Assembly: GCF_038008685.1 (NCBI RefSeq)
Contig: NZ_JBBOZQ010000001.1
Location: 4,216,001 to 4,280,000, forward strand
Length of the DNA: 64,000 nt
Source of the DNA: Lysinibacillus sp. FSL W8-0992
GTDB taxonomy: Bacteria > Bacillota > Bacilli > Bacillales_A > Planococcaceae
Reading direction: 5' to 3'
Below, piece by piece: positions 25,581 through 44,756 of the stretch (within the stretch, counting starts at the first letter, position 1; every line of letters starts with the position of its first letter). A program made the translations under genes and the position numbers. The notes beneath the pieces are model-generated. The model was not told where the DNA came from. It ran no database searches and saw only the letters and a list, made by a program, of their open reading frames with translations.

Positions 25581-25587
25581 ACCTCAA

Positions 25588-25634
25588 AAAATACTCTAGG
25601 TAAACGACACATTGCGTTTGCCTAGAGTATTTTT
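25588..25634 (+). terminator. Terminator of the chemoreceptor gene
   Basis: Long arms with one G-T pair (ATACTCTAGG and its complement, extended to about 18 pairs) lead into a T run after the stop codon. Confidence 0.85.
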
Positions 25635-26345: not shown

Positions 26346-26373
26346 TTGTGCACAATGACTTTTTTGGTATATT
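26346..26373 (+). promoter_or_regulatory. Candidate promoter of the opp1 operon
   Basis: TTGTGC (26346-26351) and TATATT (26368-26373) are 16 bases apart, about 50 bases upstream of the oppA1 ATG. Confidence 0.45.
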
Positions 26374-26421
26374 AAATAGGAGCTTCACAAAAGGCTTAAA
26401 AATTGTATAAGGGGGATTCAC

Positions 26422-28077
26422 ATGAATAAGAACAAAAAGTTTTTATTACTTACAGTCCTTGCAGTATTTTCACTAGTACTTGCTGCATGTGGCTTCGGTG
26501 GAGATTCGTCTGATAAAGCAAAAGACGATAAAAAAGATTCTGGTTCATCAGAAACAGCTTCTTCTAAAGAGTTGAACGTAGTTGTAGCTTCTGAGCCGCC
26601 ATCTTTACATCCACAACTTGCAACAGATACTACTTCTGGGGCAATTCTTCAAAACGTATTTGAAGGTTTAATGGTTTTAGACCTTGATGGAAAACCAGCT
26701 CCTGGTATGGCTGAAAGCTATACAGAGAGTGAAGATTTATTAACTTACACTTTCAAATTACGTGATGCAAAATGGACAAACGGAGATCCAGTAGTTGCTG
26801 GCGACTTCGAATATGCTTGGAAATGGGCTTTAAATCCTGAAAACTTATCTGAGTACGCATCTTTACTTTACCCAATTAAAGGCGCTGAAGCTTATAACTT
26901 AGGCGAAGGTTCTGCTGATGATGTTGGTGTTAAAGCTGAAGATGACAAAACTTTAGTTGTAACTTTACAACAACCAACAGCTTACTTCTTAGAGTTAGTT
27001 GCATTTAAAACATATGCTCCTTTAAATCAAAAAGTAGTTGAAGGCAATGATAACTGGTACACTGATGCTGGTGAAAACTTCGTAACGAACGGACCATTCA
27101 CATTAGATACTTGGAAACACAATGATTCAGTAGTATTAAAGAAAAACCCTGAGTATTGGGATGCTTCTAGTGTAGCTCTAGATACTGTAAACATTGGTAT
27201 GGTTGAAAATGAAGCAACTGCTTCAACAATGTTCAAAACTGGAGAAATCGATTATTTAGGTTCTCCTTATCAAACAGTTTCACTTGATGAAATTGATGGC
27301 TTTAAAGCAGACGGTTCATTACAAATCGCTGACTATGCTGGTGTATACTGGTACAAATTCAATACAACAGACAAAATTACTGGAAACGCTAACATCCGTA
27401 AAGCGTTAACATTAGCAATCGATCGTCAAGGCTTAATTGACAACATTACTAAAGGTGAACAAAAACCTGCTTTAGGTATGGTTCCATCTGCAATTAGCGG
27501 TTTTGAAGAAGACCGTGGTTACTTCAAAGATAACGATATCGAAGGTGCTAAAGCAGCACTTGAAGCTGGTATGAAAGAACTTGGTATTAAAGATCCAAAA
27601 GATCTTAAAATTAATGTTTCATTCAATACAAGTGAAGGACATGCTTCTATTGCTCAATTCATCCAAGAAGGCTGGAGCAAAAACCTTGGTATTACTGTAG
27701 GTCTTGATAACTCTGAATGGCAAGTGTATTTAGAAAAACTTAACGTTCTTGACTACCAAGTAGGACGTATGGGTTGGATCGCTGACTACAACGATGCTTA
27801 TTCATTCCTTGAAATGTATGATACAGCAGCAAATGGTAACAACGATACAGGCTGGGAAAACCCTAAATACAAAGAATTGTTAAAACAATCTATTGCTGAA
27901 GGTGATTCTGCTAAACGTTTAGACCTATTAAAACAAGCTGAATCTATCGCAGTTTCAGAATTCCCTGTTGCGCCAATCTACTACTACACTAACCTTTCAG
28001 TAGTTGATAAAAAAGTTAAAAACATGGTTCCAGATATTTTAGGTAACATTAAACTTAAATATGTTGATGTGGAATAA
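26422..28077 (+). CDS. oppA: Oligopeptide ABC transporter substrate-binding lipoprotein (opp1)
   Basis: A 551-residue SBP family 5 protein that captures peptides outside the membrane. The lipoprotein signal peptide ends in LAAC with lipidated Cys23, followed by a Ser/Asp/Lys-rich linker. The family block ANIRKALTLAIDRQ and the conserved C-terminal AESIAVSEFPVAPIYYYT are clear. GGGGGA precedes the ATG. It is first in an oppABCDF operon; codon choice (TTA, GGT, AAA) suggests high expression. A hairpin with a T tail separates it from oppB, as is common for abundant binding proteins. Confidence 0.95.
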   Translation: MNKNKKFLLLTVLAVFSLVLAACGFGGDSSDKAKDDKKDSGSSETASSKELNVVVASEPPSLHPQLATDTTSGAILQNVFEGLMVLDLDGKPAPGMAESYTESEDLLTYTFKLRDAKWTNGDPVVAGDFEYAWKWALNPENLSEYASLLYPIKGAEAYNLGEGSADDVGVKAEDDKTLVVTLQQPTAYFLELVAFKTYAPLNQKVVEGNDNWYTDAGENFVTNGPFTLDTWKHNDSVVLKKNPEYWDASSVALDTVNIGMVENEATASTMFKTGEIDYLGSPYQTVSLDEIDGFKADGSLQIADYAGVYWYKFNTTDKITGNANIRKALTLAIDRQGLIDNITKGEQKPALGMVPSAISGFEEDRGYFKDNDIEGAKAALEAGMKELGIKDPKDLKINVSFNTSEGHASIAQFIQEGWSKNLGITVGLDNSEWQVYLEKLNVLDYQVGRMGWIADYNDAYSFLEMYDTAANGNNDTGWENPKYKELLKQSIAEGDSAKRLDLLKQAESIAVSEFPVAPIYYYTNLSVVDKKVKNMVPDILGNIKLKYVDVE

Positions 28078-28117
28078 TTTTCACTACTGAATCTTTTATC
28101 TTTTAAGCTCTACAGCG

Positions 28118-28160
28118 AAGAGCTGCCTCGTGGCCACTTCGGCGCGAGTCAGCTCTTTTT
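28118..28160 (+). terminator. Intercistronic hairpin (partial terminator) between oppA1 and oppB1
   Basis: AAGAGCTG-x-CTCG pairs with CGAG-x-CAGCTCTT and is followed by TTT. It probably lets most transcripts stop after oppA and protects that mRNA, giving an excess of binding protein over the channel. Confidence 0.7.
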
Positions 28161-28216
28161 AAAATACGAAGGCATTTATTTGTCAGAAAATTGACAAATA
28201 GAAGGAGGAGTTTTAT

Positions 28217-29146
28217 GTGATTAAATATATTTTGAAAAGGCTGATGTATATACTTCTCGCGCTTTTCGTCATCGTAACGGCTACGTTTTTCTTAATGCGT
28301 CTTGCTCCAGGTAGTCCTTTTGCAAGTGAACGTAATTTCCCTCCTCAAATTGAGGAAAAGTTAAACGAAACGTATGGATTAAATAACCCTTGGTATATTC
28401 AATATAAAGATTATTTAATCGATACGGCCTCATTTAATTTCGGTGAGTCTATGAAGTATAAAGCGCGTTCTACAAATGATATGATTAATGAGAGCTTCCC
28501 AGTTTCGTTAACACTTGGGATTGAAGCTATGCTATTGGCGATTGGATTCGGTGTATTAATAGGCGTAGTTTCAGCGCTTTATCATAATAAATGGCCGGAT
28601 TATTTGGCAACGACCTTTGCGGTGCTCGGTATTTCAGTACCATCATTTATTTTGGCAGGCTTAATGCAGTATTTCTTAGCCTTTAAATTAGGCTGGTTCC
28701 CTGTTAGTGGATGGAAGGGCTTCATCTATAGTGTTTTACCTGCCCTTGCTATCGCATTCTCACACATGGGTTTTATCGCAAAATTAACACGTTCAAGTAT
28801 GCTTGAGCAAAATAGCAGTGATTATGTAAAAATGGCACGTGCTAAAGGAATTGGCAAATGGACAATCGTTTTCCGCCATACTTTACGAAATTCCTTACTG
28901 CCAGTTCTTACTTACCTTGGCCCATTAACAGCTGGTGTTGTAACAGGTAGTTTCATCGTTGAACAAATATTCGCAATCCCTGGTCTAGGTAAACACTTTG
29001 TACAAAGTATTACAAACCGTGATTACACAGTTATCATGGGAACGACAGTGTTCTATTCAATCATCCTTTTATTTGCGGTATTAATTGTCGATATTCTATA
29101 TAGCATTGTTGATCCGCGAATTAAGTTGAAGGGAGCGAAAAAGTAA
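28217..29146 (+). CDS. oppB: Oligopeptide ABC transporter permease OppB (opp1)
   Basis: A 309-residue inner-membrane permease with about six transmembrane helices, the family start IKYILKRLMYILLALFVIVTATFFLMRLAPGSPF and the cytoplasmic coupling-helix region DYVKMARAKGIGKW. The start is GTG with AGGAGGAG upstream; the overlapping ATG is followed at once by TGA. It overlaps oppC by one base. Confidence 0.95.
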   Translation: MIKYILKRLMYILLALFVIVTATFFLMRLAPGSPFASERNFPPQIEEKLNETYGLNNPWYIQYKDYLIDTASFNFGESMKYKARSTNDMINESFPVSLTLGIEAMLLAIGFGVLIGVVSALYHNKWPDYLATTFAVLGISVPSFILAGLMQYFLAFKLGWFPVSGWKGFIYSVLPALAIAFSHMGFIAKLTRSSMLEQNSSDYVKMARAKGIGKWTIVFRHTLRNSLLPVLTYLGPLTAGVVTGSFIVEQIFAIPGLGKHFVQSITNRDYTVIMGTTVFYSIILLFAVLIVDILYSIVDPRIKLKGAKK

Positions 29147-30066
29147 TGACACAGCAACCGATTAACAAAGATATGTTTAAAATTGTCGGTGGAAATCATG
29201 AAGCAACAGATAAATTAGCTGATAAATCCGTTTCCTTCTGGAAGGAAGTATTTATTCGCTTTTCACATAATAAAATGGCAATTTTCGGTTTAATTACACT
29301 GATTATCGTTATTATAATGGCGATTACTGTTCCAATGCTTTCACAATATAAATATAGCGATCAACTTGGTGTCTACAACAGTCCCCCATCTGCTGATTTT
29401 TGGTTTGGGACAGATGATTTAGGTCGTGATATTTTCGTACGTATTTGGGCAGGTGCTCGTATTTCCCTATTTATCGGGATTACAGCGGCTGTTATTGACT
29501 TAGTGATTGGTGTTCTTTGGGGAAGTATTTCAGGTTTAGCAGGTGGTCGTGTTGATAATATTATGATGCGTATTGCCGACGTATTAACAGCTGTGCCTTA
29601 CCTTTTAGTTGTAATCGTTTTATTAGTAGTTTTACAACCAGGTTTATTCCCTATGATTATCGCCCTTTCGATTACAGGCTGGATTAGCATGGCTCGTATC
29701 GTTCGTGGTGAAGTATTATCCATTAAAAATCAAGAATATGTACTTGCTGCACGTACTTTAGGTGCGAGCACAATGCATTTAATCTTAAAACATTTAATTC
29801 CAAATGCACTTGGTGCGATTTTAGTAACAATGACTCTAACAATTCCGTCTGCTATTTTCACCGAGTCATTCTTAAGTTATTTAGGACTTGGTGTTCCTGC
29901 TCCGCACGCTTCATGGGGTACAATGGCATCTGAAGGGAATAAAGCAATTACAAATGCCCCTTGGCGTTTAATTTTCCCAGCAGTATTTATCTCACTAACA
30001 ATCTTTGCGTTTAACGCAGTTGGTGACGGCTTACGTGATGCATTAGATCCAAAACTACGTAAATAA
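29146..30066 (+). CDS. oppC: Oligopeptide ABC transporter permease OppC (opp1)
   Basis: A 306-residue second permease subunit. It has an N-terminal cytoplasmic tail, a first helix at about 45-65 and the EYVLAARTLGASTMHLILKH coupling motif. The family segment FGTDDLGRDIFVR after helix 1 and LSYLGLGVPAPHASWGTM near the end are typical. Confidence 0.95.
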   Translation: MTQQPINKDMFKIVGGNHEATDKLADKSVSFWKEVFIRFSHNKMAIFGLITLIIVIIMAITVPMLSQYKYSDQLGVYNSPPSADFWFGTDDLGRDIFVRIWAGARISLFIGITAAVIDLVIGVLWGSISGLAGGRVDNIMMRIADVLTAVPYLLVVIVLLVVLQPGLFPMIIALSITGWISMARIVRGEVLSIKNQEYVLAARTLGASTMHLILKHLIPNALGAILVTMTLTIPSAIFTESFLSYLGLGVPAPHASWGTMASEGNKAITNAPWRLIFPAVFISLTIFAFNAVGDGLRDALDPKLRK

Positions 30067-30079
30067 GGAGGTGGCCGAA

Positions 30080-31135
30080 ATGAGTAAAACAATTTTAGAA
30101 GTAAAAGATTTAAAAATTAACTTTAAAACATATGCAGGGCTTGTCCATGCTGTGCGTGGTGTAAACTTTGATTTAAAAGAAGGTGAAACACTAGCGATCG
30201 TTGGTGAATCTGGTTCTGGTAAGAGTGTTACGAGTAACGCCTTAATGAAATTAATTCCACAGCCACCTGGTATTTATGAGTCAGGACAAATTTTATTTAA
30301 CGGCCGTGATTTAATTCCACTTACTGATAAAGAAATGTCGAAAGTACGCGGAAATGAAATTGCTATGATCTTCCAGGATCCGATGACAAGTTTGAATCCA
30401 ACTATGAAGGTCGGACGTCAAATAACTGAAGTAATTTTGCAACATAAGAAAGTTTCTAAGGCTGATGCTAAAAAACGCGCAATCGAACTTTTAACGCAAG
30501 TAGGTATCCCCTTCCCTGAAAAACGTTACAATCAATATCCACATGAATTTTCAGGCGGGATGCGTCAACGTGTTGTAATCGCTATTGCACTAGCGGCTGA
30601 TCCTAAGCTGTTAATCGCCGATGAGCCAACAACTGCATTGGACGTAACAATCCAAGCACAAATTTTAGAATTAATGAAAGAAATCCAAAAAAGTTCTAAA
30701 ACTTCTATCATTTTCATTACGCATGACTTAGGCGTTGTAGCTAACGTTGCTGACCGCGTAGCCGTTATGTATGCTGGTCAAATCGTCGAGTATGGTACAG
30801 TAAATGATATTTTCTATAATCCAAAACATCCTTATACATGGGGATTACTTGGTTCTATGCCTGATTTAGATAGTAATGAGGACGAGCTATTACGTACGAT
30901 TCCTGGTTCACCTCCAGATCTTACGAACCCTCCAAAGGGAGATGCTTTTGCTGCTCGTAATGAATTTGCAATGGCGATTGACTATGAGCAAGAGCCGCCA
31001 ATGTTCCAAGTAAGCGACACTCATTTTGCAAAAACTTGGTTGTTACATCCTGATGCGCCAAAAATTCCACTTCCAGATGCGGTTGCTAAACGTATTGAGG
31101 GCTTTTTAGCGAAGGAGGCAGAATTCAATGACTAA
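30080..31135 (+). CDS. oppD: Oligopeptide ABC transporter ATPase OppD (opp1)
   Basis: A 351-residue ATPase. Walker A GESGSGKS, Q-loop FQDPMTSLNP, signature FSGGMRQR, Walker B LLIADEPT and the switch His in THDLG are present. The ATG at 30080 is preferred: the GTG nine bases upstream is part of the AAGGAGGTG ribosome binding site. The C-terminus has GDAFAARNEFAM in place of the Cys-rich motif found in OppD2/OppD3, as in the Bacillus Opp (Spo0K) system. It overlaps oppF by eight bases. Confidence 0.95.
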   Translation: MSKTILEVKDLKINFKTYAGLVHAVRGVNFDLKEGETLAIVGESGSGKSVTSNALMKLIPQPPGIYESGQILFNGRDLIPLTDKEMSKVRGNEIAMIFQDPMTSLNPTMKVGRQITEVILQHKKVSKADAKKRAIELLTQVGIPFPEKRYNQYPHEFSGGMRQRVVIAIALAADPKLLIADEPTTALDVTIQAQILELMKEIQKSSKTSIIFITHDLGVVANVADRVAVMYAGQIVEYGTVNDIFYNPKHPYTWGLLGSMPDLDSNEDELLRTIPGSPPDLTNPPKGDAFAARNEFAMAIDYEQEPPMFQVSDTHFAKTWLLHPDAPKIPLPDAVAKRIEGFLAKEAEFND

Positions 31136-32054
31136 AACAGGTGCAAAAAAAATTCTTGAAATTAAAAACGTAAAGCAATACTTTGGTTCACCAAGCAACC
31201 CTATTAAAGCTGTTGATGGTATTAGCTTTGATGTTTATGAAGGTGAAACACTTGGACTTGTTGGAGAATCAGGCTGTGGTAAATCGACGACTGGTCGCTC
31301 AATCATTCGCCTATATGATATTACAGATGGCGAAATTATTTTCGATGGTCAAAACGTGCATGGTAAAAAATCAAAAAGCGATTTAAAGACTTTTAATCGT
31401 CAAATGCAAATGATTTTCCAAGATCCATATGCTTCGTTAAACCCTCGTATGACAGCTGGGGAAATCATTGCAGAAGCTTTCGATATTCATGGCTTATATA
31501 AAGATAAGAAAGAACGTCGCGAAAAAATCAACCAATTGCTTGAAGCTGTAGGTTTAAACAAAGAGCACGCCAATCGTTACGCACATGAATTCTCAGGTGG
31601 TCAACGTCAGCGTATCGGTATCGCTCGTGCCCTTAGCTTAGATCCAAAGTTCATCATTGCCGATGAACCAATTTCTGCACTTGACGTATCGATTCAAGCG
31701 CAAGTTGTTAACTTATTAAAACAACTACAAAAAGAACGTGGCTTAACATACCTGTTCATTGCCCATGACCTTTCAATGGTTAAATACATCAGTGATCGTA
31801 TCGCTGTTATGTATCGTGGTAAAATTATGGAAATTGGTAAAGCCGATGATATTTATAATCATCCTGTTCATCCTTATACAAAATCATTATTATCAGCAAT
31901 CCCGCTTCCAGACCCAATGTCAGAAAAGCGTCGTCAACGTATTCCTTACAAACATACAGAAGTTGACGAAAGCGCAACATACCATGAAGTTGGCGAACAA
32001 CATTATGTTTATGGTACTGCTGACCTTGTGAAAACATGGGTTGCCACTAAATAA
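31128..32054 (+). CDS. oppF: Oligopeptide ABC transporter ATPase OppF (opp1)
   Basis: A 308-residue ATPase, partner of OppD. It has Walker [10 protein letters not shown], signature FSGGQRQR, Walker [10 protein letters not shown] and AHDLS. Translation is coupled to oppD by overlap, with AAGGAGG inside the end of oppD. Together oppABCDF form a full importer of the Spo0K type, which in B. subtilis also takes up signalling peptides for sporulation and competence. Confidence 0.95.
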
Positions 32055-32059
32055 TATAT

Positions 32060-32102
32060 GATCCATCCATTGAACTTATGCAATGGATGGATCTTTTTTT
32101 TT
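32060..32102 (+). terminator. Terminator of the opp1 operon
   Basis: A 13-base perfect stem (GATCCATCCATTG and complement) with an eight-base loop is followed by nine T residues. Confidence 0.9.
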
Positions 32103-32164
32103 GAGGATTCGATTATTCATCTCTTCTATAAATTGTAAGAAATACTATATTTACCATTATACAC

Positions 32165-32325
32165 TTATTTTATCGGTGCATCAGCTATTAGTTCAAGATC
32201 TTGTATCTCTGTACCCGTTTCCCGATCAATATTATAGCTTTTTATCCGTTTATTGATTGCTATCGTTGACGTGCGGAAATACATTGGTATTATCATTGCC
32301 TTGTCACTCATAAACTCTTGCCATG
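32165..32325 (-). pseudogene. oppA 3'-end remnant bordering the lanthipeptide cluster
   Basis: On the minus strand this encodes the last 52 residues of an OppA protein (from WQEFMSDKAM to the ADAPIK end and a stop). It aligns without gaps to the 3' end of the intact oppA2 at 38913-39072, with about 24 mismatches in 160 bases and 44 of 52 residues identical. Similarity stops abruptly at 32325, and no start or upstream part of the gene is present. It is the tail of a diverged second oppA whose body was replaced or deleted, probably when the adjacent cluster arrived. Confidence 0.8.
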
Positions 32326-32385
32326 CTATTGGGATTTTCTTATTAAGAATTTCTAATAAAGTGTGGGATTATTTAGTAATCGGAA

Positions 32386-34131
32386 TTAGTTACCAATAAA
32401 TTGTTTACTAGTTAATTTTTTATATGTGTCACACGATAATAATAATTCAGCATGTTTACCTATACATTCAATTTTACCTTTATTTAAAACTAAAATCTGG
32501 TCTGCATTTATAATAGTAGAAATTCTATGAGCAATTATTATTATTGATTGTTTTGATTTTCTAGTAATTAAAGAGCGTTGAATTATATCCTCTGATATTA
32601 TATCCAAGTTTGCTGTCGCTTCGTCTAATAATAAAAAAGGAGCTTCTTTTAATAAGGCTCTTGCTATTGCAAGACGTTGTTTTTGTCCTCCAGAAATATT
32701 AAAACCATTTTCACCTAAATAAGTGTAGAATTTTTCTGGTAAAGAATTAATGAAATCTAGAGCATTAACTTCTTCACATATAGACAAAAGCTCGCTTTCT
32801 TTAATATCACGTTTAATCCCATATGTGAGATTTTCTTTAATCGTACCAGGGAATATATAGAAGTCTTGTGATACATAACTAAACTTATCACGCCAATCAG
32901 AAAGACTAAATTCTTTAAAAGAAATAGAATTAAGTTTTATTTCCCCTTTAGTAGGCTTGTAGAATTGTTCTAGAAGATAAAACAAGGTGGATTTACCACT
33001 ACCACTTTCACCTACAATAGCTGTAATAGTACCTGGGTGAACTAAGAATGAAATACCATTCAAAACCCAAATTTTTTCATATTTAAAGTATAGATTTTCA
33101 ACTTCTAAAGTATATTTCGAATTATTTTGATAATATGACAGTCTCTTACCATTTTCTTTTTGTTCTTCTATTTCTAAATTTAAAATATCAATAATGCGTT
33201 TACTAGAGCCAGAAAAAGATTGATAGCTAGCAATAAAGTTACCTATAATACCTAATGGAACACTAATTTGATAAGCATAAAATATAAATGCTAAAAGGTC
33301 TCCTGATGAAATCTCCCCTAATTGAATTCTATAAGAACCATATGCAAGTACAATCACAATCATTGCCAATGTTAACGTATTTACGAGTGGTAAAAGAAGG
33401 GATTCTATCTTAGATTTATTTTTTGTAACAAAATAAATTTCTCTAAATTGTTTTCTTCCTTCTTTCATTTCTTTGTTTTGAGTATTCGAAGCTTTTATTA
33501 ATCTAATTCCGTTTAGAACTTTATATAAATATCCCGCAACTATTGAATTATGCTCATAATATAAAAAAGAAATATTTCTTAATTTCCTACTACTTATTGA
33601 AATTAATAAAATTATTATAGGTAAAAAAAATAATAGAGCCATAGTTAAATAAATATCTAAATACATCATAAAAAAAATTGAACCAGTAATTGATAGTATA
33701 CCTGTTATTAGTCTTGCAAAATCATGAGACAATAAATTCATAGCTGCTGTAGTATCTGTTAATATTCTACTAACAATTTCACTCGATTGATTTTTTGCAA
33801 AAAAGTCAATCTTTGCATTCAACAATTTTCCCCAGATATTTTTTCGAAGGTTCAAAATTATCCTATTTCCTACAATTGATAATAAGAAGGATGCCACGCT
33901 CAAACTACATAGTTGTACTATAAATAAAATTAGTATTACCATGATTAATTTATACGCAATCCCATTATTTATATCATCAATTTGCATTTTCACTAAAATT
34001 GGTAGAATTAATGAACAAAAAGAACTAACTACTCCTAAAAAAATTGCAAAAAATAAAAGTTTAAATGGTGGGCTGGCATTTCGATATAAAATAAATAGCT
34101 TCTCTTTTTTTTTAATATAGAGTACCCCCAT
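32386..34131 (-). CDS. lanT: Lanthipeptide ABC exporter (LanT-like, no peptidase domain)
   Basis: A 581-residue half-transporter fusing a six-helix membrane domain (about 20-310) to an ATPase (about 340-575). Walker A GESGSGKST, Q-loop VSQD, signature NISGGQKQR, Walker B FLLLDEAT and AHR are intact. It starts directly with the membrane domain, so the N-terminal C39 peptidase of bifunctional LanT/bacteriocin exporters is absent. It should export the modified precursor or product made by lanABC; it could alternatively serve as self-protection. No clear ribosome binding site is seen upstream of the ATG. Strongly AT-rich like the rest of the cluster. Confidence 0.85.
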   Translation of the reverse strand: MGVLYIKKKEKLFILYRNASPPFKLLFFAIFLGVVSSFCSLILPILVKMQIDDINNGIAYKLIMVILILFIVQLCSLSVASFLLSIVGNRIILNLRKNIWGKLLNAKIDFFAKNQSSEIVSRILTDTTAAMNLLSHDFARLITGILSITGSIFFMMYLDIYLTMALLFFLPIIILLISISSRKLRNISFLYYEHNSIVAGYLYKVLNGIRLIKASNTQNKEMKEGRKQFREIYFVTKNKSKIESLLLPLVNTLTLAMIVIVLAYGSYRIQLGEISSGDLLAFIFYAYQISVPLGIIGNFIASYQSFSGSSKRIIDILNLEIEEQKENGKRLSYYQNNSKYTLEVENLYFKYEKIWVLNGISFLVHPGTITAIVGESGSGKSTLFYLLEQFYKPTKGEIKLNSISFKEFSLSDWRDKFSYVSQDFYIFPGTIKENLTYGIKRDIKESELLSICEEVNALDFINSLPEKFYTYLGENGFNISGGQKQRLAIARALLKEAPFLLLDEATANLDIISEDIIQRSLITRKSKQSIIIIAHRISTIINADQILVLNKGKIECIGKHAELLLSCDTYKKLTSKQFIGN

Positions 34132-34163
34132 ATCTATGTAATAATAAAATTAAACTTTATGAT

Positions 34164-35381
34164 TTAATGCTTCAAAAAAATCCAATCCATTTTTTCTTTT
34201 TCATCTAACAAAATAGATACTATCACTATATAGACACTTATAGTTCCATCTATAATCCCCTCCTTGTACTCATTATCATTTCCTTCAACAGAGCAATCCG
34301 GAAATGAATTAAATCTGTTAAAATCTGAATTATCATGTAGTATGGTTAGTAACTTTAAAATATGTTCAATAAATTTGATATTTCCGAATTCTTTATACAG
34401 TAAGAATGTTTCGTAAATTACTCCTGATATTCCATGACAAAATACGGTGGAAACATTTGATTTCTTCAAGTATAAAGAATCCAGAAAAAGGGTGTAATTA
34501 TTAATATATTTTTCTTTAAGTAATTTGTCATCTATTGCCTTAGATGCTAGAATCATAGACCTAGAAATCCCTGTAAGTCCATAACACCAAGAGAAATTAA
34601 TATATTTTTTATGCCTAGGTGTATTAATAAAAGGTAAACGTTCAGGAAAAGTTAGGACACCTAATGATTTGAAATTATTTTTTTCAAAAAACTCGATCAA
34701 ATTTAATATTGTATGATCCAAATTTTCTACTTCAATTTCTTCGAGTTTGACTATTGATAAAATTGATAAGATGCCTGATAAACCATGTGCAGTCCCTAAA
34801 TTAATAATATTATTTTTTTCAACAGGATTATTTGAAAGTTTATTCATTTCAAATTCTGCATATAATATTATCTTTTTTACTAGTTCTTTAATTAACTGAT
34901 TAAAATTATTATTTTCTTTTAGAAAAAGCATATATCTAACTACACCTGTTATTCCAGTAACAACATCATATTTCGATACGTCAAACTCTATAGGGAATTT
35001 CACAAGTAATTTCTTAATTCGATATTCTAATAATTCATTTAATGATTTTAAATAATGTTGGTATCTGCCTTCTTTTGCTAAAGATAAAACTGATGCCCCA
35101 ATTCCACTTATTCCTTGATATAAAGATACATCTAATAAGTTAAAGTCTATTTTTCCATTTAATAATTCTAAATACCTATGTGCATAATAATCCCACTTAT
35201 TTTGTGGATACAACTTATCTAAACTTGCATAAAATATACAAAGTCCAGGAATCCCATGACTAAGCGAATAAATACTTTTATCTTGAAAATTCATTTTTAA
35301 AGTACTATTTGCAAAGTTTTTCAAATGCTCTTCAAATAATAGTGAACAATGTTTTTGAAGCTTCAATGAAGTAATATACAT
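34164..35381 (-). CDS. lanC: Lanthionine synthetase C-like cyclase (LanC)
   Basis: A 405-residue LanC, the usual size. The alpha-toroid repeats with Gly-rich motifs are visible (HGIPGLC, QGISGIG, VTGITGV, AHGLSGI, CYGLTGI, CHGISGV). The zinc ligands Cys266 (SWCYG), Cys315 and His316 (CHG) are intact, with His199 (TAHG) and Asp139 (YDVVTG) matching the catalytic residues of NisC. It joins cysteine thiols to dehydroalanine/dehydrobutyrine to form lanthionine rings. The start at 35381 follows GGGGAGGAGACGC; the in-frame TTG further upstream overlaps that site. Confidence 0.93.
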   Translation of the reverse strand: MYITSLKLQKHCSLLFEEHLKNFANSTLKMNFQDKSIYSLSHGIPGLCIFYASLDKLYPQNKWDYYAHRYLELLNGKIDFNLLDVSLYQGISGIGASVLSLAKEGRYQHYLKSLNELLEYRIKKLLVKFPIEFDVSKYDVVTGITGVVRYMLFLKENNNFNQLIKELVKKIILYAEFEMNKLSNNPVEKNNIINLGTAHGLSGILSILSIVKLEEIEVENLDHTILNLIEFFEKNNFKSLGVLTFPERLPFINTPRHKKYINFSWCYGLTGISRSMILASKAIDDKLLKEKYINNYTLFLDSLYLKKSNVSTVFCHGISGVIYETFLLYKEFGNIKFIEHILKLLTILHDNSDFNRFNSFPDCSVEGNDNEYKEGIIDGTISVYIVIVSILLDEKEKMDWIFLKH

Positions 35382-35456
35382 GCGTCTCCTCCCCAAACAT
35401 CAGATTAAAAACAAAGGAAAATTATTATGCTATACGGAAAAATCTTACACTGAAAT

Positions 35457-38400
35457 TTAAATATGCTTAAGATATTTTAATAAACTATACATTAGTTGAT
35501 TTTCTTTTTCTTTATCTATAATCATTAATCTATTCACATTCATATGAATTACTGATAGAACGATATCGTATATATTAGATTCCTGCAATCGAGCAACTTC
35601 TATTTGTTTTAAAAATTTTCTAAGTGCGTATGTTCTGAATTTTGAAATCTCTTCAACTTCGAAAACAGAACCTATTCCCTTATTTTCTAAGAGTTCATCT
35701 GTTAAGCTCAATTTCATTAATCTCTTATTTAAGCTATTTAGGTCTAAATAACGTTTTATTATTTTAATTTGCTTCTCTTTTTCAAAGCCTATATCATGAA
35801 ATAAACATTTTATCGAATAAATAATTATTTTCTCAGTAGTTTCCTTTATTTTTTGGTTTAGATTCAGTAGCGCTAAACAATATTGACTGTCTGCAAAAAA
35901 TACGTCATGAAATTGTTTTTCTAATTGCTTTCCCCCATATCTCATATATTCTGGGTAATACGTATCTATACTTACACTATCAACAAAATTTATGTCCATC
36001 CATTTTTTCGATAAATCTGACATATATGAAACCACAAGCTTAAAATTGAAGGATTCTACTTTTATCCTCAATCTAATATGCGGTCGTAAATCGATATATC
36101 TTATATAAAAATAAGAATTGATTTTTTTCTCTTTCAATAATTTATTCATAGTAGGATAAATATAATTTATTAATAGCTCATCTTGATAATCTTCTTTAAT
36201 ATATAGTTTATAGAAAATCCAATCATCGCCTGGTCCGTTTTTCCTTTTATCCCCAATATCGTTATACAGTGTACTAAATTTCTTTTTTTTACTCCTTTTA
36301 TTTAATATAGATACTGTTAATTCTTCTTTAAATTGAAACTCTCTTACAGATTCGATATTTATACCATAGTCTACTTCAGTAAAATTTAGCTTATTTGACT
36401 TAGAAAATTCCTTTCTTAAAATTTTCAAATGTAGGGAATTTTCCAGATTAAAATATATTGTCGAATCTACACTTTTCAATTCAACTATGTTTGGTACTTT
36501 GTATGTTTTTCTCCATTTTGAAATTGCATCTTCCCAATCTTCATAATTAAACTGCTTGTCTAACTGTAAAATATACATATCTATTCTCCATTGTTTTTTA
36601 GATAGTACTATGTTTTTATATCTAATTCTTGGAGTAAAAACAAATTTATTATAAAAGATTGGAAAGAAAGTTTGAAATGGAATCTCTCCCTCTTTGCCTA
36701 CCTCTAATAAAAATTTATAAATCGTAGGGAAATACGTTACCCCATGTAACATATTCGTTGTTTTAGGAATAATAATGTTATTTGTATCAGAATTTTTTAA
36801 ATATAATTCTCCAAATTCATTAACTCCGGAAAGAATAGAATCAATTTTAATGTTATTTTTATACTTAGATAACCCCGAAAAAATAGGTATTTCATGTTTC
36901 CTAAGATTTATAGTTGAACGTATATTAGAAGCTCTACCATAAACACTTTGGCAACTAACTTCGGATACCTCATAATTGTCCCCATATATATTTCTTTCAA
37001 AATCAATTAATTTTCCAATCTCCTTAGAATACTTACTACTTAACAAAAATAAAAATCTACCTATAAATTGTCCTGCATTGGCCGTAAAATTTTCATTATT
37101 AACTGTCAGATAAACTTTATTAGGCTTTTGGACTACTGAGAACAGCACATCAAATGACTCATATACTTTAGTGAAATCTATTTTTTGATATCGTTTAAAC
37201 TTTCTTAATTCCGAATCAGTAATCTCCAGTTCCTCTAATCCTTGAAATAACGCATTTGTTATTAAACTTTCCACATAATTATAGATTGGATTTTCTTTCA
37301 TCTCATTTAAACTATCTAGAACCTTTGTCGAATACTCATTTATTTCAAGTGAATACAGTAATTCAACTAATTTTATTTCAGTATTGTAACCATATTTCTC
37401 AATAAAAGCTTTTTTAAAAGCTTCTAAATTCCAATTTTGATTTTGATAAATTAAAAAAAGGCTTAGTATATCAATTGCTTCCTTTAAGTCTTCATTAACA
37501 TTTTTTCGCAATTCGTAATTAGGTTCAAATTTTAAATCTATTTGTAGATAGTCATTACAATTATACATTTTCCCCATTTTTGATCTTATTTTATTTAACA
37601 ACTCAATGCTTTCACACTCACCTAATTCAAAAACCGAATATTCAGAAATATGGCATTGGATTTCATTAAGTAATTGAAACATTGGCTCATCTGTTAAATT
37701 AAATTTTATAAAAAATTGTAATAATTCATCGAGACTATTTGCGGTTGTTAAATTTGGACGCAAATTTGAATGTAATATTTCGAGTGTTATTAATTGTTTC
37801 AAATAAGATTTAATATCATTTATATTGATATCTTCATAAAAACTTTTCAATTCAAATAATAAAATAGAAAGTGGTATAAAATCAGCTGCAATTAACCTTA
37901 TTTTTTTAATTAGCTCGTTATTCCGAATTGAAAAACTACTCTTTTCACCTTGCTTCTTATACCTATCAAATTGTCCATACATAGTTCTGTATGGAAAAAA
38001 TATCCTATAACCCTCAATTAAATACATATCCACAAATTTTACATTTATAAAATCCCAAAAATGTTCCTGACCTTCTATTGTTTCTATTACACCTAGTAAC
38101 CACATTGAATCTACTCTTATAAATTTCTTTAATTTTTTAGCCATTTCATCATTTGTAGTGGTACATAGTATATTTTTTTGAGAAACTTCTTGAACGCCAG
38201 AAAAAAGCCCAAATGGAGTTGATTTTGTAGAAATTCTTGCAAGGTATTTATATAAAGTGGCTATAATATTTCTTTTTTTCTTCTCACTCTTGGTATTATA
38301 TTTGATAATTTCATTAAAGAGATTCGGATTAGCGAAATATATTGCTTCTTTAATAACTTGATTATTCAGAACCAATTTTAAAATGTTTTCTGGATTTTCT

Positions 38401-38489
38401 TCTAAGGATAATTTATTTATATAAAATGAAAGCGGAAAAAGTGGTGTTCTCACAATAGATAAATCCATTAAATCCCAATCTTTTCTCAT
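35457..38489 (-). CDS. lanB: Class I lanthipeptide dehydratase (LanB)
   Basis: A 1010-residue full-length LanB (NisB is 993). The N-terminal glutamylation domain (about 1-650) includes RTPLFPLSFY, RISTKSTPFGLFSG and the RASNIRSTINLRKHEIP region. The C-terminal elimination (SpaB_C) domain, from about 740, has DDWIFYKLYIKEDY and YFYIRYIDLRPHIRLRIK. The family uses glutamyl-tRNA to glutamylate Ser/Thr of the precursor, then eliminates glutamate. GAGGAG precedes the ATG. It follows lanA by 78 bases, with a stem-loop between. Confidence 0.95.
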   Translation of the reverse strand: MRKDWDLMDLSIVRTPLFPLSFYINKLSLEENPENILKLVLNNQVIKEAIYFANPNLFNEIIKYNTKSEKKKRNIIATLYKYLARISTKSTPFGLFSGVQEVSQKNILCTTTNDEMAKKLKKFIRVDSMWLLGVIETIEGQEHFWDFINVKFVDMYLIEGYRIFFPYRTMYGQFDRYKKQGEKSSFSIRNNELIKKIRLIAADFIPLSILLFELKSFYEDININDIKSYLKQLITLEILHSNLRPNLTTANSLDELLQFFIKFNLTDEPMFQLLNEIQCHISEYSVFELGECESIELLNKIRSKMGKMYNCNDYLQIDLKFEPNYELRKNVNEDLKEAIDILSLFLIYQNQNWNLEAFKKAFIEKYGYNTEIKLVELLYSLEINEYSTKVLDSLNEMKENPIYNYVESLITNALFQGLEELEITDSELRKFKRYQKIDFTKVYESFDVLFSVVQKPNKVYLTVNNENFTANAGQFIGRFLFLLSSKYSKEIGKLIDFERNIYGDNYEVSEVSCQSVYGRASNIRSTINLRKHEIPIFSGLSKYKNNIKIDSILSGVNEFGELYLKNSDTNNIIIPKTTNMLHGVTYFPTIYKFLLEVGKEGEIPFQTFFPIFYNKFVFTPRIRYKNIVLSKKQWRIDMYILQLDKQFNYEDWEDAISKWRKTYKVPNIVELKSVDSTIYFNLENSLHLKILRKEFSKSNKLNFTEVDYGINIESVREFQFKEELTVSILNKRSKKKKFSTLYNDIGDKRKNGPGDDWIFYKLYIKEDYQDELLINYIYPTMNKLLKEKKINSYFYIRYIDLRPHIRLRIKVESFNFKLVVSYMSDLSKKWMDINFVDSVSIDTYYPEYMRYGGKQLEKQFHDVFFADSQYCLALLNLNQKIKETTEKIIIYSIKCLFHDIGFEKEKQIKIIKRYLDLNSLNKRLMKLSLTDELLENKGIGSVFEVEEISKFRTYALRKFLKQIEVARLQESNIYDIVLSVIHMNVNRLMIIDKEKENQLMYSLLKYLKHI

Positions 38490-38532
38490 CGGCTAATCTC
38501 CTCATTCAAATATCGAATTTTAACGAAATATA

Positions 38533-38563
38533 ATGCGGCGAAAAGAATTTCTTTTCACCGCAT
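38533..38563 (-). promoter_or_regulatory. Stem-loop between lanA and lanB
   Basis: Thirteen-base arms with one G-T pair (ATGCGG..GAAAAG on the minus strand) enclose AAATT. No T run follows. Such intercistronic hairpins behind lanA genes act as partial terminators or as mRNA stabilisers, giving excess precursor over the enzymes. Confidence 0.65.
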
Positions 38564-38567
38564 ACCA

Positions 38568-38744
38568 TTATGGTCTTATAGGACAAGGTGGTATAAAGGA
38601 ACAATTAGTTTCTTTAGTACTCGGCAGTGGGGGATCTGGACACCAATTTGGATGCCAAGAAATTGCTAATCCTCCCCTCTCCGAAATATCTTTTGAAGCC
38701 GGTGAAATTTTTAAATCTAAATCAAAAATATCTTTTTCCATCAT
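38568..38744 (-). CDS. lanA: Class I lanthipeptide precursor peptide (LanA)
   Basis: A 58-codon gene immediately upstream of lanB, preceded by a perfect AAGGAGGTG seven bases from the first of two consecutive ATGs. The leader starts MMEKDIFDLDLKIS, containing the FDLDL form of the class I FNLD box recognised by LanB and LanC, and ends ERGG at residue 25. The 33-residue core after Gly-Gly begins LAISWHPNWCPDPP and ends IPPCPIRP. It holds three Cys (35, 48, 54), five Ser/Thr (29, 42, 43, 46, 49), two Trp and nine Pro. Each Cys has a Ser or Thr upstream at ring-forming distance (29-35, 43 or 46-48, 49-54), so up to three thioether rings are possible. I do not recognise the core from a known lantibiotic. 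Confidence 0.88.
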   Translation of the reverse strand: MMEKDIFDLDLKISPASKDISERGGLAISWHPNWCPDPPLPSTKETNCSFIPPCPIRP

Positions 38745-38912
38745 TAACTCACCTCCTTATTAATACAAATAATTATCATTTTAAAAAGCAATTAGATACT
38801 TACTTTATTGTGAATATCTTTAAAGGGTAAGCACCACTCAACTCTCAAAGTATAATCAATTCAAGAGTTCTATTCACAAATTTAAATAAATACAATATTC
38901 ACCATTTTATTA
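38745..38912 (-). promoter_or_regulatory. lanA upstream region with inverted repeat around a possible -10
   Basis: Between oppA2 and lanA, on the minus strand, TATACT around 38849-38854 could be a -10, and AACTCT/AGAGTT inverted arms (38841-38846 and 38865-38870) enclose it. The -35 fit is poor. No regulator gene is present in the cluster. Confidence 0.3.
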
Positions 38913-40721
38913 TTATTTTATCGGCGCATCAGCTATTAGTTCAAGATCTTGAATCTCCGTACCTGTTTCACGATCGATATTATAGCTTTTTATACGTTTA
39001 TTGACTGCAATCGTTGATGTGCTGAATAACGTTGGGACAACCATTGCTTTGTCTGCCATATATTCTTGCCATTTACGGAAAGCCCGTGCACGATATGTTG
39101 GATCTAACGCCTCTTGTGAATCAATATCATTTAACAGCTTCGTTAAATCATCCGATACGTAGCGACTAAAGTTAAATGCTGCTCCTTTACTATATAATCC
39201 TGCTGGTGAAGGGTTCGTTCCTGTACCCCAACCTGCAAGATACATATCAATTTCAGGATCATCTGCTTCTACTTTATCGTAGAAGCTATTAGCTTCGATT
39301 AAACGACCTGTCGTTAGTTGTACATCTAAGCCAACATCTTTCCAATTTTGACGATAATACTCAACAATTGCTTCAGCCGTATCAGAGCCTGCTATCGCTG
39401 CTAAACGAATAGTAAACTTATTGCCATCTTTATCTTCACGAAGACCATCACCATCTACATCTTTAAAGCCTGCTTCATCCAGTAATTCTTTCGCTTTGTC
39501 AGGATCATATTGATACCCCTCAAGCGTTCCATCATAGTAAGTTTTAAAAGCGGGTGGGATTAAGGAATTCGCACGCACACGTAACCCTTGATAAAATCTA
39601 TCTGATACCGTTTCAATATCCATCGCATAGGCAATTGCTTGCCGCAACTGGACATCATTCATTTTTGCCTTTTCATCATAAATATTTTCGCCTTTTTCTT
39701 TGTCATATTTCCCTAACTTAAAGCCTAGATAGCTGTATGATAAGTCAGGTCGTCCCAAAATCGAAATATTCGATAAATTTTTTATAGTATCATATTGAGT
39801 AGCAGGGAATGAAGAGATGTCAAATTGTCCTGCTTTCAATGCCTCACCAATAGTAGAAGTTGAAACAACTTTAATAACTACCTTATCAACTTTTGGTTTA
39901 CCTTTATAGTAATTTTCATTAGCCACCAACTGCACAGATTCGCCATTAACGATATTGTCATATTTAAATGGACCGAGTGTAATTGGATTTTTTCTTACAG
40001 CATCAGAAGAAATTAAATCTTTTACAGCAATCGATTTGAGCTGATGCTTCGGTGCTGCATAGCCCCATAAACCATCACCACCTGAATAAATAGCAGGTGA
40101 CACTTTCTTTAACGAAATTTCTATCGTTTTATCATCAATCTTTTTAATGCCTGAAATCTTGTCTGCTTTACCCTCATGGTATTCTTCTGCCCCTACAATA
40201 TTTTTAAAGTCATCATCATAGCGCACACCTTCATAATCGGGATGACCAATAATTTCATACGGATAGATTAAATCCTCTGCCGTTAATGGTGTGCCATCCG
40301 ACCATTTCACATCCTCTTGAATGGTAATTGTCACTTTGTTATTGTCCGTATCAACATCTAATTTTGCGATTCCCTCATCTGTTATTAAAAAGTCACCATC
40401 AATCTCAAAAAGACTATTTGAAGCATAGCCCATAATGGAACTATCTGTGGCATCGGTATAAAGCTCAGCAAGAAAAATGCCTTTAAATGGTGAGTCTGCA
40501 ACAAGCCCAACATGTAATGTACCACCTTCAATTGCTTCCCCTTCATTTGTTACTTTCGTCGGTAGCAAATTTGTATCTACTTTGTTATCTTCTGTTTGTG
40601 CTGGCTTATCGTTGCTGCCCTCAGCTTCATTTGACTGCTCTTTATCATTGCGATTGCAGGCGGTAGCTAATAGCAATATGATTGCCAACGTAATAACATT
40701 CATCAACCACTTTTTCCTCAT
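38913..40721 (-). CDS. Peptide ABC transporter substrate-binding lipoprotein (opp2)
   Basis: A 602-residue SBP family 5 lipoprotein. The signal peptide ends in LATAC with lipidated Cys22, followed by an acidic Asn/Asp/Glu linker. MNDVQLRQAIAYAMDIETV and KAKELLDEAGFKDVDGDGL are family blocks. It is the last gene of a D-F-B-C-A operon. Its 3' 160 bases are duplicated, in diverged form, at 32165-32325 on the far side of the lanthipeptide cluster. Peptide specificity unknown. Confidence 0.9.
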   Translation of the reverse strand: MRKKWLMNVITLAIILLLATACNRNDKEQSNEAEGSNDKPAQTEDNKVDTNLLPTKVTNEGEAIEGGTLHVGLVADSPFKGIFLAELYTDATDSSIMGYASNSLFEIDGDFLITDEGIAKLDVDTDNNKVTITIQEDVKWSDGTPLTAEDLIYPYEIIGHPDYEGVRYDDDFKNIVGAEEYHEGKADKISGIKKIDDKTIEISLKKVSPAIYSGGDGLWGYAAPKHQLKSIAVKDLISSDAVRKNPITLGPFKYDNIVNGESVQLVANENYYKGKPKVDKVVIKVVSTSTIGEALKAGQFDISSFPATQYDTIKNLSNISILGRPDLSYSYLGFKLGKYDKEKGENIYDEKAKMNDVQLRQAIAYAMDIETVSDRFYQGLRVRANSLIPPAFKTYYDGTLEGYQYDPDKAKELLDEAGFKDVDGDGLREDKDGNKFTIRLAAIAGSDTAEAIVEYYRQNWKDVGLDVQLTTGRLIEANSFYDKVEADDPEIDMYLAGWGTGTNPSPAGLYSKGAAFNFSRYVSDDLTKLLNDIDSQEALDPTYRARAFRKWQEYMADKAMVVPTLFSTSTIAVNKRIKSYNIDRETGTEIQDLELIADAPIK

Positions 40722-40738
40722 TGTTATTGCCTCCTCTG

Positions 40739-41641
40739 TTATCCTAATCTTTGTTTTGCGTCAGCGGCACGACGGAATGCTTGTCCGATATAATTAATAC
40801 CGAGCATTAAAACTAAAATTAATAAAGATGCTGGTAGCCAAACCCACCATTTGTCAGCTAAGACGAGCGGATTTCTTGCATAGCTTACTAAAGTTCCTAA
40901 ACTTGGCGTCGAAGGTGGTAGCCCAAATCCTAAAAATGATAGCCCTGTTTCAATCCCAATATTACCCGCAAGACTTAATGTAAACTCTACTATTAAGATC
41001 GAACTTAAATTTGGTAATAGCCCCTTAAACATAATGGCTATATCACTCGTCCCCATTGTTTTAGATTCACTTACATAATCCCGTCGCCCTTCTGATAAAG
41101 CTTTACTTCGAATTAACCGAGCAATCCCTATCCATTGAAATGCACTAATAATAATAACGAGCTCAAGAACGCCATATTCTGGAATGATAGAAACAAGGAC
41201 AATAAAAATCATAAGTGTCGGTAATGTAATAATAAAATCAATTATTCGCATCATCACATTATCCACAATACCGCTGTAATAGCCCATAATAATTCCCATA
41301 GCTATGCCTATAATATTGGCTATCACCGTTACCCATAGAGCAATTAAAAGCGAATTTTTCGCCCCAATAATTAGCTGGCCAAGCACATCACGCCCTGCCT
41401 CATCCGCTCCAAGAATGTATCCATTAACACCTGGTTCGGTATAGCGTTCTAGCAAATTAATTTTCAATACTTCTTCTTGGTTGAGCATCCCTGCTGCAAT
41501 AAAAATCGTTAACATAATAATCGTGACACCAAAAAAGGAAAACATCGCTACTTTATCTTTTTTAAACTCTCGTAAAACGACTTGTATACCTGTCGGCGGA
41601 GAGTTTTCCATCATATTCGTCTCGTAAGTTTGTTGCGTCAT
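40739..41641 (-). CDS. Peptide ABC transporter permease, OppC type (opp2)
   Basis: A 300-residue permease with an N-terminal tail and about six helices. It has ILGADEAGRDVLGQL after helix 1, the coupling motif DYVSESKTMGTSDIAIMFK, and SFLGFGLPPSTPSLGTL near the end. It lies between the OppB-type gene and the binding-protein gene. Confidence 0.92.
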   Translation of the reverse strand: MTQQTYETNMMENSPPTGIQVVLREFKKDKVAMFSFFGVTIIMLTIFIAAGMLNQEEVLKINLLERYTEPGVNGYILGADEAGRDVLGQLIIGAKNSLLIALWVTVIANIIGIAMGIIMGYYSGIVDNVMMRIIDFIITLPTLMIFIVLVSIIPEYGVLELVIIISAFQWIGIARLIRSKALSEGRRDYVSESKTMGTSDIAIMFKGLLPNLSSILIVEFTLSLAGNIGIETGLSFLGFGLPPSTPSLGTLVSYARNPLVLADKWWVWLPASLLILVLMLGINYIGQAFRRAADAKQRLG

Positions 41642-41676
41642 TCATATTCACCTCTTCTTACACATTATGTTAGTCG

Positions 41677-42639
41677 TTAGTCTATACGGATACGAGGATC
41701 CACAATGCTCATAATAATGTCCGACAGCAGACTACCTAATAATGCTAAGAAACCATAGAGCATGATGAGTGCAGTAATGACACTATAGTCGCGACTCGTT
41801 ATTGAACTAATAAACAATTCCCCCATACCTGGGTAGCCATAAATAGTTTCTATGAAAATCGAGCCACCTAATAAACCTGTTATTGTAAACCCTAAAAACG
41901 CTGCAATAGGAAGAACTGAATTGCGGAAAATATGTCGCGCATATATTCTACGGATTGGAATGCCTTTACTTCGAGCTGTTTTTACATAATCTTGTGTTTT
42001 AGCATCAATAATTTCCGAGCGTAAATATTGGATAATCCCTGTAGTACCTAAAATAGCTGCCGTCATAGCAGGCAATAGCAAGTGATATATTTTATTCCAA
42101 AAATAGGCCATCGTTCCTGATTCAAGTCCAACATCAACGGTTCCACTCGTTGGGAACCACATTAAGCGATAACCAAAAACGAACAAGAAAACGAGAGATA
42201 ATACAAAAGTGGGAATTGCGAAGCTAATAAAACTGTATAGGATAATCGATTTATCTAAAAATGTATCTTGCTTACGCCCTGCAAGCATTCCCAATGGTAT
42301 GGCGAGCAAGTAGACAAGAATAACACTAAGTAATGAAAGCCAAAATGTATTGAGTGCACGCTCACCAATAAGAGTGGACACCGCAATTTTATATGTATAG
42401 CTTTGTCCAAAATCACCTTGAAAGGCATTTGTAATCCAGCGATAATATTGAACATACCAAGGATCATAGAAGCCTGCTTGTATTCGTAGCTCCTCAATCC
42501 TTGAAGGATCTGTCTCTGGTGTAATTAACCCTGTAAAAGGGTCACCTGGCATTTGCTTTGCCAATATAAAAATAATTAAACTCAATATAAACATTTGGGG
42601 AATCATTACAATAATGCGTCTAATAACAGTTTTCCACAT
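41677..42639 (-). CDS. Peptide ABC transporter permease, OppB type (opp2)
   Basis: A 320-residue permease with the family N-terminus VIRRIIVMIPQMFILSLIIFILAKQMPGDPF and the DYVKTARSKGIPIRRIYARH coupling region. The ATG at 42639 overlaps the end of the upstream ATPase gene, and AGGAGGG lies in that gene's last codons. The longer frame upstream has no ribosome binding site. Confidence 0.92.
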   Translation of the reverse strand: MWKTVIRRIIVMIPQMFILSLIIFILAKQMPGDPFTGLITPETDPSRIEELRIQAGFYDPWYVQYYRWITNAFQGDFGQSYTYKIAVSTLIGERALNTFWLSLLSVILVYLLAIPLGMLAGRKQDTFLDKSIILYSFISFAIPTFVLSLVFLFVFGYRLMWFPTSGTVDVGLESGTMAYFWNKIYHLLLPAMTAAILGTTGIIQYLRSEIIDAKTQDYVKTARSKGIPIRRIYARHIFRNSVLPIAAFLGFTITGLLGGSIFIETIYGYPGMGELFISSITSRDYSVITALIMLYGFLALLGSLLSDIIMSIVDPRIRID

Positions 42640-42640
42640 T

Positions 42641-43588
42641 TTACAATCCCTCCTGCTCAATTTCAGACATCGCTACTTTATGGGTCTCTGAAATGGATTT
42701 TAAAGGGTATACTTTACCATTCTCATCATAATAGTGATGATGATCTTTGCGATACTTCTCTTCGACTTTTTGCCGAGCTGCTTTACGCGCCATCCTCGTT
42801 TCAGGCTCAATATGTGGGATAGCTGACAACAGGCGATTTGTGTAAATATGCTGTGGATTGATGTAAATATCCTGACGGGTACCCGTTTCAACAAAGCGCC
42901 CCTTGTACATGATTGCAATGTAATCACACATATGTTTTACGACTCCGAGGTCATGAGATATAAATAAGTAACTTAGCCCATATTCTTGCTGAATATCTTT
43001 CATAAAATTTAGTACTTGTGCTTGAACCGATAAATCAAGTGAGGATACAGGCTCGTCCGCAATAATCAATTTTGGATTAGTAGCAACTGCCCGCGCGATA
43101 CCAAGACGTTGCTTTTGTCCTCCTGAAAATTCATGCGGATACTTTAACAAGACGTCCTCTGACATACCAACAATGGCAAGTAGCGCTTTAATACGCTTGC
43201 GTTCCTCCTGATCGCTGAGCTTCAAAAAATTGCGCATTGGCTCTGCTAGAATATCCAGTACACGCTTTCTTGGATTCATACTCGAGTGTGCGTCTTGGAA
43301 AATCATTTGAATATCTCTGTTATACGCAGAATTACGCTTACGTCGTTTATTAGTAACATCGTGCCCTTCATAAATGATTTGGCCAGACGTTACCTTTTCG
43401 AGGCCAATGATTGCTTTACCTGTTGTTGATTTACCAGAACCCGATTCACCGACTAAACCATATGTTTTTCCTTTTTCAAACGCCATCGTAACGCCATCAA
43501 CCGCGTACACTTTATCAATGACGGTATTAAAAAAGCCACCTCGTATTGAATAATGGACGTTTAAATCTTTAATTAGCATAAATGTCAT
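42641..43588 (-). CDS. Peptide ABC transporter ATPase, OppF type (opp2)
   Basis: A 315-residue ATPase with Walker A GESGSGKST, FQDAHSSMNP, FSGGQKQR and Walker B LIIADEPVS. Its extended C-terminus is rich in His, Lys and Tyr (KYRKDHHHYYDENGKVY). The ATG at 43588 has GGAGG eight bases upstream and lies inside the end of the OppD-type gene. Confidence 0.92.
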   Translation of the reverse strand: MTFMLIKDLNVHYSIRGGFFNTVIDKVYAVDGVTMAFEKGKTYGLVGESGSGKSTTGKAIIGLEKVTSGQIIYEGHDVTNKRRKRNSAYNRDIQMIFQDAHSSMNPRKRVLDILAEPMRNFLKLSDQEERKRIKALLAIVGMSEDVLLKYPHEFSGGQKQRLGIARAVATNPKLIIADEPVSSLDLSVQAQVLNFMKDIQQEYGLSYLFISHDLGVVKHMCDYIAIMYKGRFVETGTRQDIYINPQHIYTNRLLSAIPHIEPETRMARKAARQKVEEKYRKDHHHYYDENGKVYPLKSISETHKVAMSEIEQEGL

Positions 43589-44594: not shown

Positions 44595-44756
44595 ACAATC
44601 TCCCTCCAACATTCAGTTTTCTGACAAATACATTTATCTTTATTTCAAAATTATAATTCCCCTAAACTAACCCCTCCCTATTTTTTTATTTTTGCTAAAG
44701 ACAAGTACATTTAGCTTGTTAATTACAAGTAAAGCAACCTGCCTTCGTATAGATAG

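Follow-up and report, generated by a model that had tools for sequence, protein, structure and literature searches.

The window is the whole 64,000-nucleotide stretch of Lysinibacillus sp. FSL W8-0992 DNA that we analyzed. On its minus strand, four open reading frames follow one another in the order lanA-lanB-lanC-lanT, as the first-pass annotation had proposed. The first, lanA (38568..38741), encodes a precursor of 57 codons with an FDLDLK leader and the C-terminal stretch LPSTKETNCSFIPPCPIRP. It is followed by a hairpin of 14 pairs (38533..38563, minus strand), by lanB (35457..38489), encoding a full-length, 1010-aa dehydratase of the glutamyl-tRNA-dependent type, by lanC (34164..35381), encoding a cyclase of ∼405 aa, and by a lanT-like gene for an ABC half-transporter of 581 aa without a C39 peptidase domain (32386..34131). 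Upstream lies oppA (38913..40721, minus strand, start codon at 40721), which is divergent below ∼40569, and downstream a 207-nt remnant of an oppA2 3′-end (32120..32326, minus strand) marks the left end of what we interpret as acquired DNA. A separate LanB with N- and C-domains in Pfam, a separate LanC with Cys, Cys, and His zinc ligands, and a small FxLD-leader precursor with a Ser/Thr and Cys core adjoining lanB were all found. Together with the conserved active-site residues, the LanB and LanC domains support the assignment to class I lanthipeptide biosynthesis. The cluster had further been described as a complete modification and export set. This holds for dehydration, cyclization, and export but does not extend to a lantibiotic producer, since LanP, LanI/FEG, and LanRK are all absent from the cluster between oppA and the oppA2 remnant. 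As there is no room between these two boundaries, leader protease, immunity, and regulator genes are missing within the cluster, and the absence of immunity genes is unusual for an antimicrobial. Rfam gave no match over 26000-48000 at gathering thresholds, and no integrase-like open reading frame was noticed in 28000-44000.

Our searches against Pfam found both dehydratase and cyclase domains. LanB matched PF04738 (3e-97, positions 2-649 of 649) and PF14028 (3.6e-43, positions 1-255 of 255), in agreement with a full-length dehydratase having both domains. Its best matches among solved structures were 9g04 (6.6e-68) and NisB (9.3e-42 over 970 residues). Upon alignment to NisB, we found R85, D127, D318, R478, R806/R808, E847, and R850 of LanB at the positions of R83, D121, D299, R464, the PHIRLR arginines, E823, and R826, which we take to be functional residues of NisB. 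A putative partner of NisB H961, H982, was placed by motif. At the position of NisB R87, presumably another important residue, the LanB proteins of the window (K89) and of Lysinibacillus sp. KCTC 33748 have Lys and that of Viridibacillus has Arg. With the exception of K89, alignment revealed no loss of active sites, as the listed LanB positions and the zinc and catalytic residues of LanC were all kept.

The cyclase had been credited with all of its zinc ligands, and we found the same: LanC matched PF05147 (2.4e-50), and C271, C320, and H321 align with NisC and MadC. Numbered from the listed open reading frame, D144, H204, C271, C320, and H321 do not vary among the three relatives and align with NisC/MadC motifs. 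This listed frame opens with TTG at 35396; the start of LanC is probably the ATG at 35381, five codons inside it and directly after the GGGGAGGAG stretch. The best matches of LanC among solved structures were 8byk (1e-33), which is MadC according to the available text of PMC9889658, and NisC (5.7e-23).

The precursor had been listed with 58 codons. A frame of that length does run from the first ATG (38744), but lanA probably has 57 codons (38741-38568), since both homologues begin at the position of the second ATG. Its description as unfamiliar was borne out, as no Pfam or NCBIfam model scored above its cut-off. No Pfam model matched at 0.001, and at E ≤ 1 a single NCBIfam model was found, lanthi_I_FDLD (NF038155, FDLD family class I lanthipeptide), with 14.6 bits against a curated cut-off of 20, which places LanA outside the family by that measure. 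The likeness lies in the leader, where positions 1-11 of the model's 34 match, and the LanA core falls outside the matched stretch. By eye, this core is Pro-rich and Cys-poor and lacks the nisin ring pattern.

When we searched 261 family-level genomes with LanA, 78 gave a match at E ≤ 1, including three below 1e-4: the window itself (4.7e-38), Viridibacillus arvi DSM 16317 (G259, 2.5e-8), and Lysinibacillus sp. KCTC 33748 (G020, 2.2e-5), the latter from the same genus as the window. A profile of the three precursors matched 17 of the 261 genomes at E ≤ 0.1, counting these three at 2.2e-20 or better, and its next match (G109, 4e-5) has an internal stop. We inspected the weaker matches G109, L011 (next in the LanA search), and L090 individually; on reading, their sequences look like chance, and we rejected them as further precursors. 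All three precursors share an M-x4-FDLDLK leader and a C-terminal end of the form LPS(S/T)K...SFxPPCPI, in which C54 is the only Cys common to all. The window peptide has C35, C48, and C54, the Viridibacillus peptide the last two, and the KCTC 33748 peptide, whose middle part is shorter, the last only. A scan for FxLD-type precursors at 42 loci (32 different LanB places) returned many others, with a LanA-type core only in the two relatives; distant precursors would escape it, since many of the loci comprise only 1.5 kb on either side. As a control, the leader-motif scan recovered other precursors beside other LanB genes, for instance one in L115 that is nisin-like by eye.

The distribution of LanB followed the same lines. 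Twelve of the 261 genomes, window included, had a match at E ≤ 1e-10; the same three showed at least 50% identity, and the other nine 23-29%. In a class-wide sample, LanB was found at E ≤ 1e-60 in 19 of 398 genomes, again with the window, and the best other LanB scored 455 bits versus 1978 for that of the window. A tree of 25 LanB rows united the window, KCTC 33748, and V. arvi as a clade with 100/100 support and a long stem, while the deeper branching order was without resolution and the program warned of long branches. The LanB proteins of G153 and G242 (L033/L042 and L034/L043) formed a separate 100/100 clade, and the motif scan found no FxLD-type precursor near them. Scanning contigs with LanB alone recovered no relative, and an alignment of the three LanB proteins recovered two, KCTC 33748 and V. 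arvi; further relatives may be missed, as the contig scan used two peptide patterns only. On plasmids, 84 records carry some LanB relative, all below 60% identity, and among the matches listed (10 of 84) identity was 25.8-26.9%. Judged from these comparisons, what is newly noted here is a distinct LanB/LanC pair with a Cys-poor precursor family within the class I lanthipeptides.

Comparison of the three genomes revealed lanA-hairpin-lanB-lanC as a conserved unit in all of them, with the transporter adjoining in the window only. The stretches folded for the hairpin gave −26.2, −23.0, and −22.1 kcal/mol, and the hairpins of the window and of KCTC 33748 were classed as terminator-like. The hairpin probably acts as a partial terminator that would hold lanA expression above that of lanB. 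Between the window and KCTC 33748, dN/dS was ∼0.25 for lanB (dN 0.14, dS 0.57) and ∼0.22 for lanC; at ∼0.55 on 44 codons, lanA is less constrained than either. In KCTC 33748, lanABC lies directly behind appC, the last gene of another peptide-permease operon, on the same strand. On the far side of the cluster, 42 nt repeat the end of appC at 88%, and the DNA after them resembles the region downstream of appC in G023 (78% over 108 columns). When the region after this repeat was compared with other genomes, 37 nt matched in G001, 25 nt in G011, and none in G022. In V. arvi, the cluster has as neighbors a gene for a DesK-like kinase and one for a YtkA-like protein; this sensor kinase (L036, 12332-13471) is encoded directly upstream of lanA, and no response-regulator gene was noticed beside it. 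In KCTC 33748, the interval separating lanC from the next opp operon encodes a helix-turn-helix protein on the other strand (L035, 14184-14654). With a DesK-like kinase and a helix-turn-helix protein adjoining the cluster, regulation is possible in these two relatives. On reading the open reading frames, we recognized no immunity or leader-protease genes beside any of the three clusters; five of the relatives' frames, four of them cluster neighbors, were checked in Pfam.

The fourth gene of the cluster was confirmed as an ABC transporter gene by Pfam (ABC_membrane 1e-35, ABC_tran 2.8e-32), and none of its five listed families is a peptidase domain. Comparison of gene neighborhoods indicates that it is not part of the lan unit common to the three genomes. 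It could encode a drug or self-protection pump instead of a peptide exporter, a reading that we consider unlikely though plausible enough to be weighed. Consistent with such a pump, the best of its 568 matched solved sequences were BmrA multidrug pumps, and its best homologues elsewhere in its own genome, in G021, and in the two relatives (G020, G259) are 34-35% identical. Those in G020 and G259 lie away from the lan cluster, and neither genome has an exporter-type ABC gene adjoining lanC. Yet the gene follows lanC on the same strand after 32 nt, within the segment that appears to be acquired, and a comparable half-transporter adjoins lanC in another genome (L043), where it is 34% identical to that of the window. 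Also against a pump, NisT-type exporters likewise lack C39.

Among known systems, nisin (NisABCT) shares with the window the FxLD leader, a two-domain LanB, a Cys-Cys-His LanC, and an ABC exporter without C39, as in NisT. It differs in that the window LanB is distant from NisB and sits in its own long-stemmed clade, and in that the window cluster lacks the nisin accessory genes and the nisin-like core. Maddinglicin is linked to the window by MadC (PDB 8BYK), and, according to the available text of PMC9889658, it also has an FDLD leader. The same text gives maddinglicin seven cysteines with nisin-like first rings, and its cluster is said to include, LanI apart, what is needed for maturation, immunity, and regulation, whereas the precursors of the window family have one to three cysteines and the window cluster holds none of these genes. 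Among titles and abstract openings of the literature on Lysinibacillus/Viridibacillus lanthipeptides, we found no published description of this lan cluster; in the text available, the Lysinibacillus clusters mentioned by PMC5100339, PMC9867215, and PMC12700380 are of the thiopeptide or class III lanthipeptide type. The gene set looks like an ordinary but undescribed one that would make a small nisin-class peptide with rings.

Based on these assignments, LanB would bind the FDLD leader and dehydrate Ser/Thr residues in the C-terminal core, and LanC would close thioether rings on core Cys residues. The common Cys is predicted to give a proline-locked SFxPPC ring (S49-C54). A further ring to C48 could start from S42, T43, or T46, and in the window only, one may form to C35, so that the window peptide could carry up to three rings and the KCTC 33748 peptide only one. 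The lanT-like half-transporter would export the modified precursor, and a host protease encoded outside the cluster would remove the leader. The product is thus probably a one- to three-ring peptide, and its most likely use would be as a secreted peptide against close competitors. With immunity genes absent from the cluster, a strong membrane-active lantibiotic is less likely.

We also considered that the peptide is a signal or another non-antibiotic lanthipeptide, whose place behind Opp/App uptake operons would reflect its function, for instance re-import. This fits the clusters of the window and KCTC 33748, each of which immediately follows the final gene of a peptide-permease operon on the same strand, and the lack of recognized immunity genes. 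However, these are two cases only and involve different operons (the oppA end in the window, the appC end in KCTC 33748), the V. arvi cluster has the kinase and the YtkA-like protein as neighbors instead, and duplicated opp sequences are good recombination sites anyway, which leaves a signaling function rather doubtful. A related and equally speculative extension would make the three clusters a separate class I subfamily, in which the single proline-locked SFxPPC ring and short tail are the essential part, a portable lanA-lanB-lanC unit spreads from one bacterium to another through recombination at peptide-permease operons, and the peptide is secreted, perhaps re-imported, and not membrane-active. 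Alternatively, the cluster may be decaying or silent, transferred with its product no longer made. The single-Cys precursor of one relative, the exporter not adjoining the cluster in two, and the weaker constraint on lanA point this way, but lanA, lanB, and lanC are open in all three genomes, dN/dS is ∼0.2 for lanB and lanC, and the leader and C-terminal motif are kept, making decay quite improbable.

The AT-richness that had first suggested acquisition by transfer was reproduced in 2-kb steps, with a G+C of 0.26-0.28 at 32001-39000 versus 0.37-0.39 at 27001-32000 and 39001-43000. Beyond composition, comparison with G021, the nearest genome among those compared at the oppA locus, supports transfer and gives approximate breakpoints. 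The left flank is collinear with G021 up to 32326 (95.6% over 24540-32326; 0.93-1.00 in 250-nt steps across 28000-32249), and the right flank beyond oppA matches at 0.92-1.00 in steps across 40664-44663, apart from 0.86 in the last short step. The G021 operon ends in two tandem oppA genes and the window has one full oppA; when the first candidates of each genome were scored for the 32 genomes of the genus, at least four (G013, G021, G027, G029) carried the tandem pair. From its start to ∼40569 (approximately the first 150 nt), the window oppA is nearly identical to oppA1 of G021. Only five differences to G021 fall within 40569-41000, and differences are dense below ∼40569. Over 38913-40600, its identity to the G021 genes is 81% for oppA1 and 86% for oppA2, and its last 300 columns are clearly nearer to oppA2 (0.82-0.92 versus 0.61-0.79). 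This suggests that a divergent oppA2-like allele probably came in with the cluster.

The oppA2 remnant is 87% identical to G021 over 207 columns and 82% identical to the 3′ end of oppA across the cluster, forming a 205-nt repeat. A patch of the remnant (32120-32326) resembles oppA1 of G021, which hints that gene conversion once took place between the two oppA genes of the tandem. As the remnant reaches only 87% and is partly oppA1-like, the right breakpoint is better defined than the left, and the left end of the acquired segment may be a mosaic. Given the divergent oppA, the lan genes, and the oppA2 remnant in comparison with G021, the stretch from ∼32327 to ∼40570 looks foreign, along with the greater part of oppA within it, and appears to have replaced most of the native second oppA copy. 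In the proposed event, oppA sequences would have recombined, so that incoming DNA with the lan genes and the divergent oppA allele took the place of most of the native oppA2. No donor was found among the 32 genomes, in which the best oppA match outside the window's own genome was 86% (G013, G029). We considered site-specific integration with a duplicated target because, in the window (205 nt) and in KCTC 33748 (42 nt), the 3′-end of the gene upstream of the cluster recurs past its far side; for the window we rejected this reading, as the tandem oppA1-oppA2 pair of G021 explains the repeat. Farther along, an array at 45296-47144, placed between oppD and an appC-type gene, repeats a 21-nt GC-rich unit ∼88 times with 79% matches; both of its strands have long open frames, and similar repeats occur in G021, G027, G029, and G013.

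Taken together, the locus is very probably a small class I lanthipeptide operon whose precursor is modified by LanB and LanC and which entered by recombination between oppA sequences. The one-Cys precursor of KCTC 33748 would be a simple substrate for studies of single-ring formation with class I enzymes, and the locus, with breakpoints that are approximate, illustrates how a cluster may enter a chromosome via recombination across a duplicated neighboring gene.
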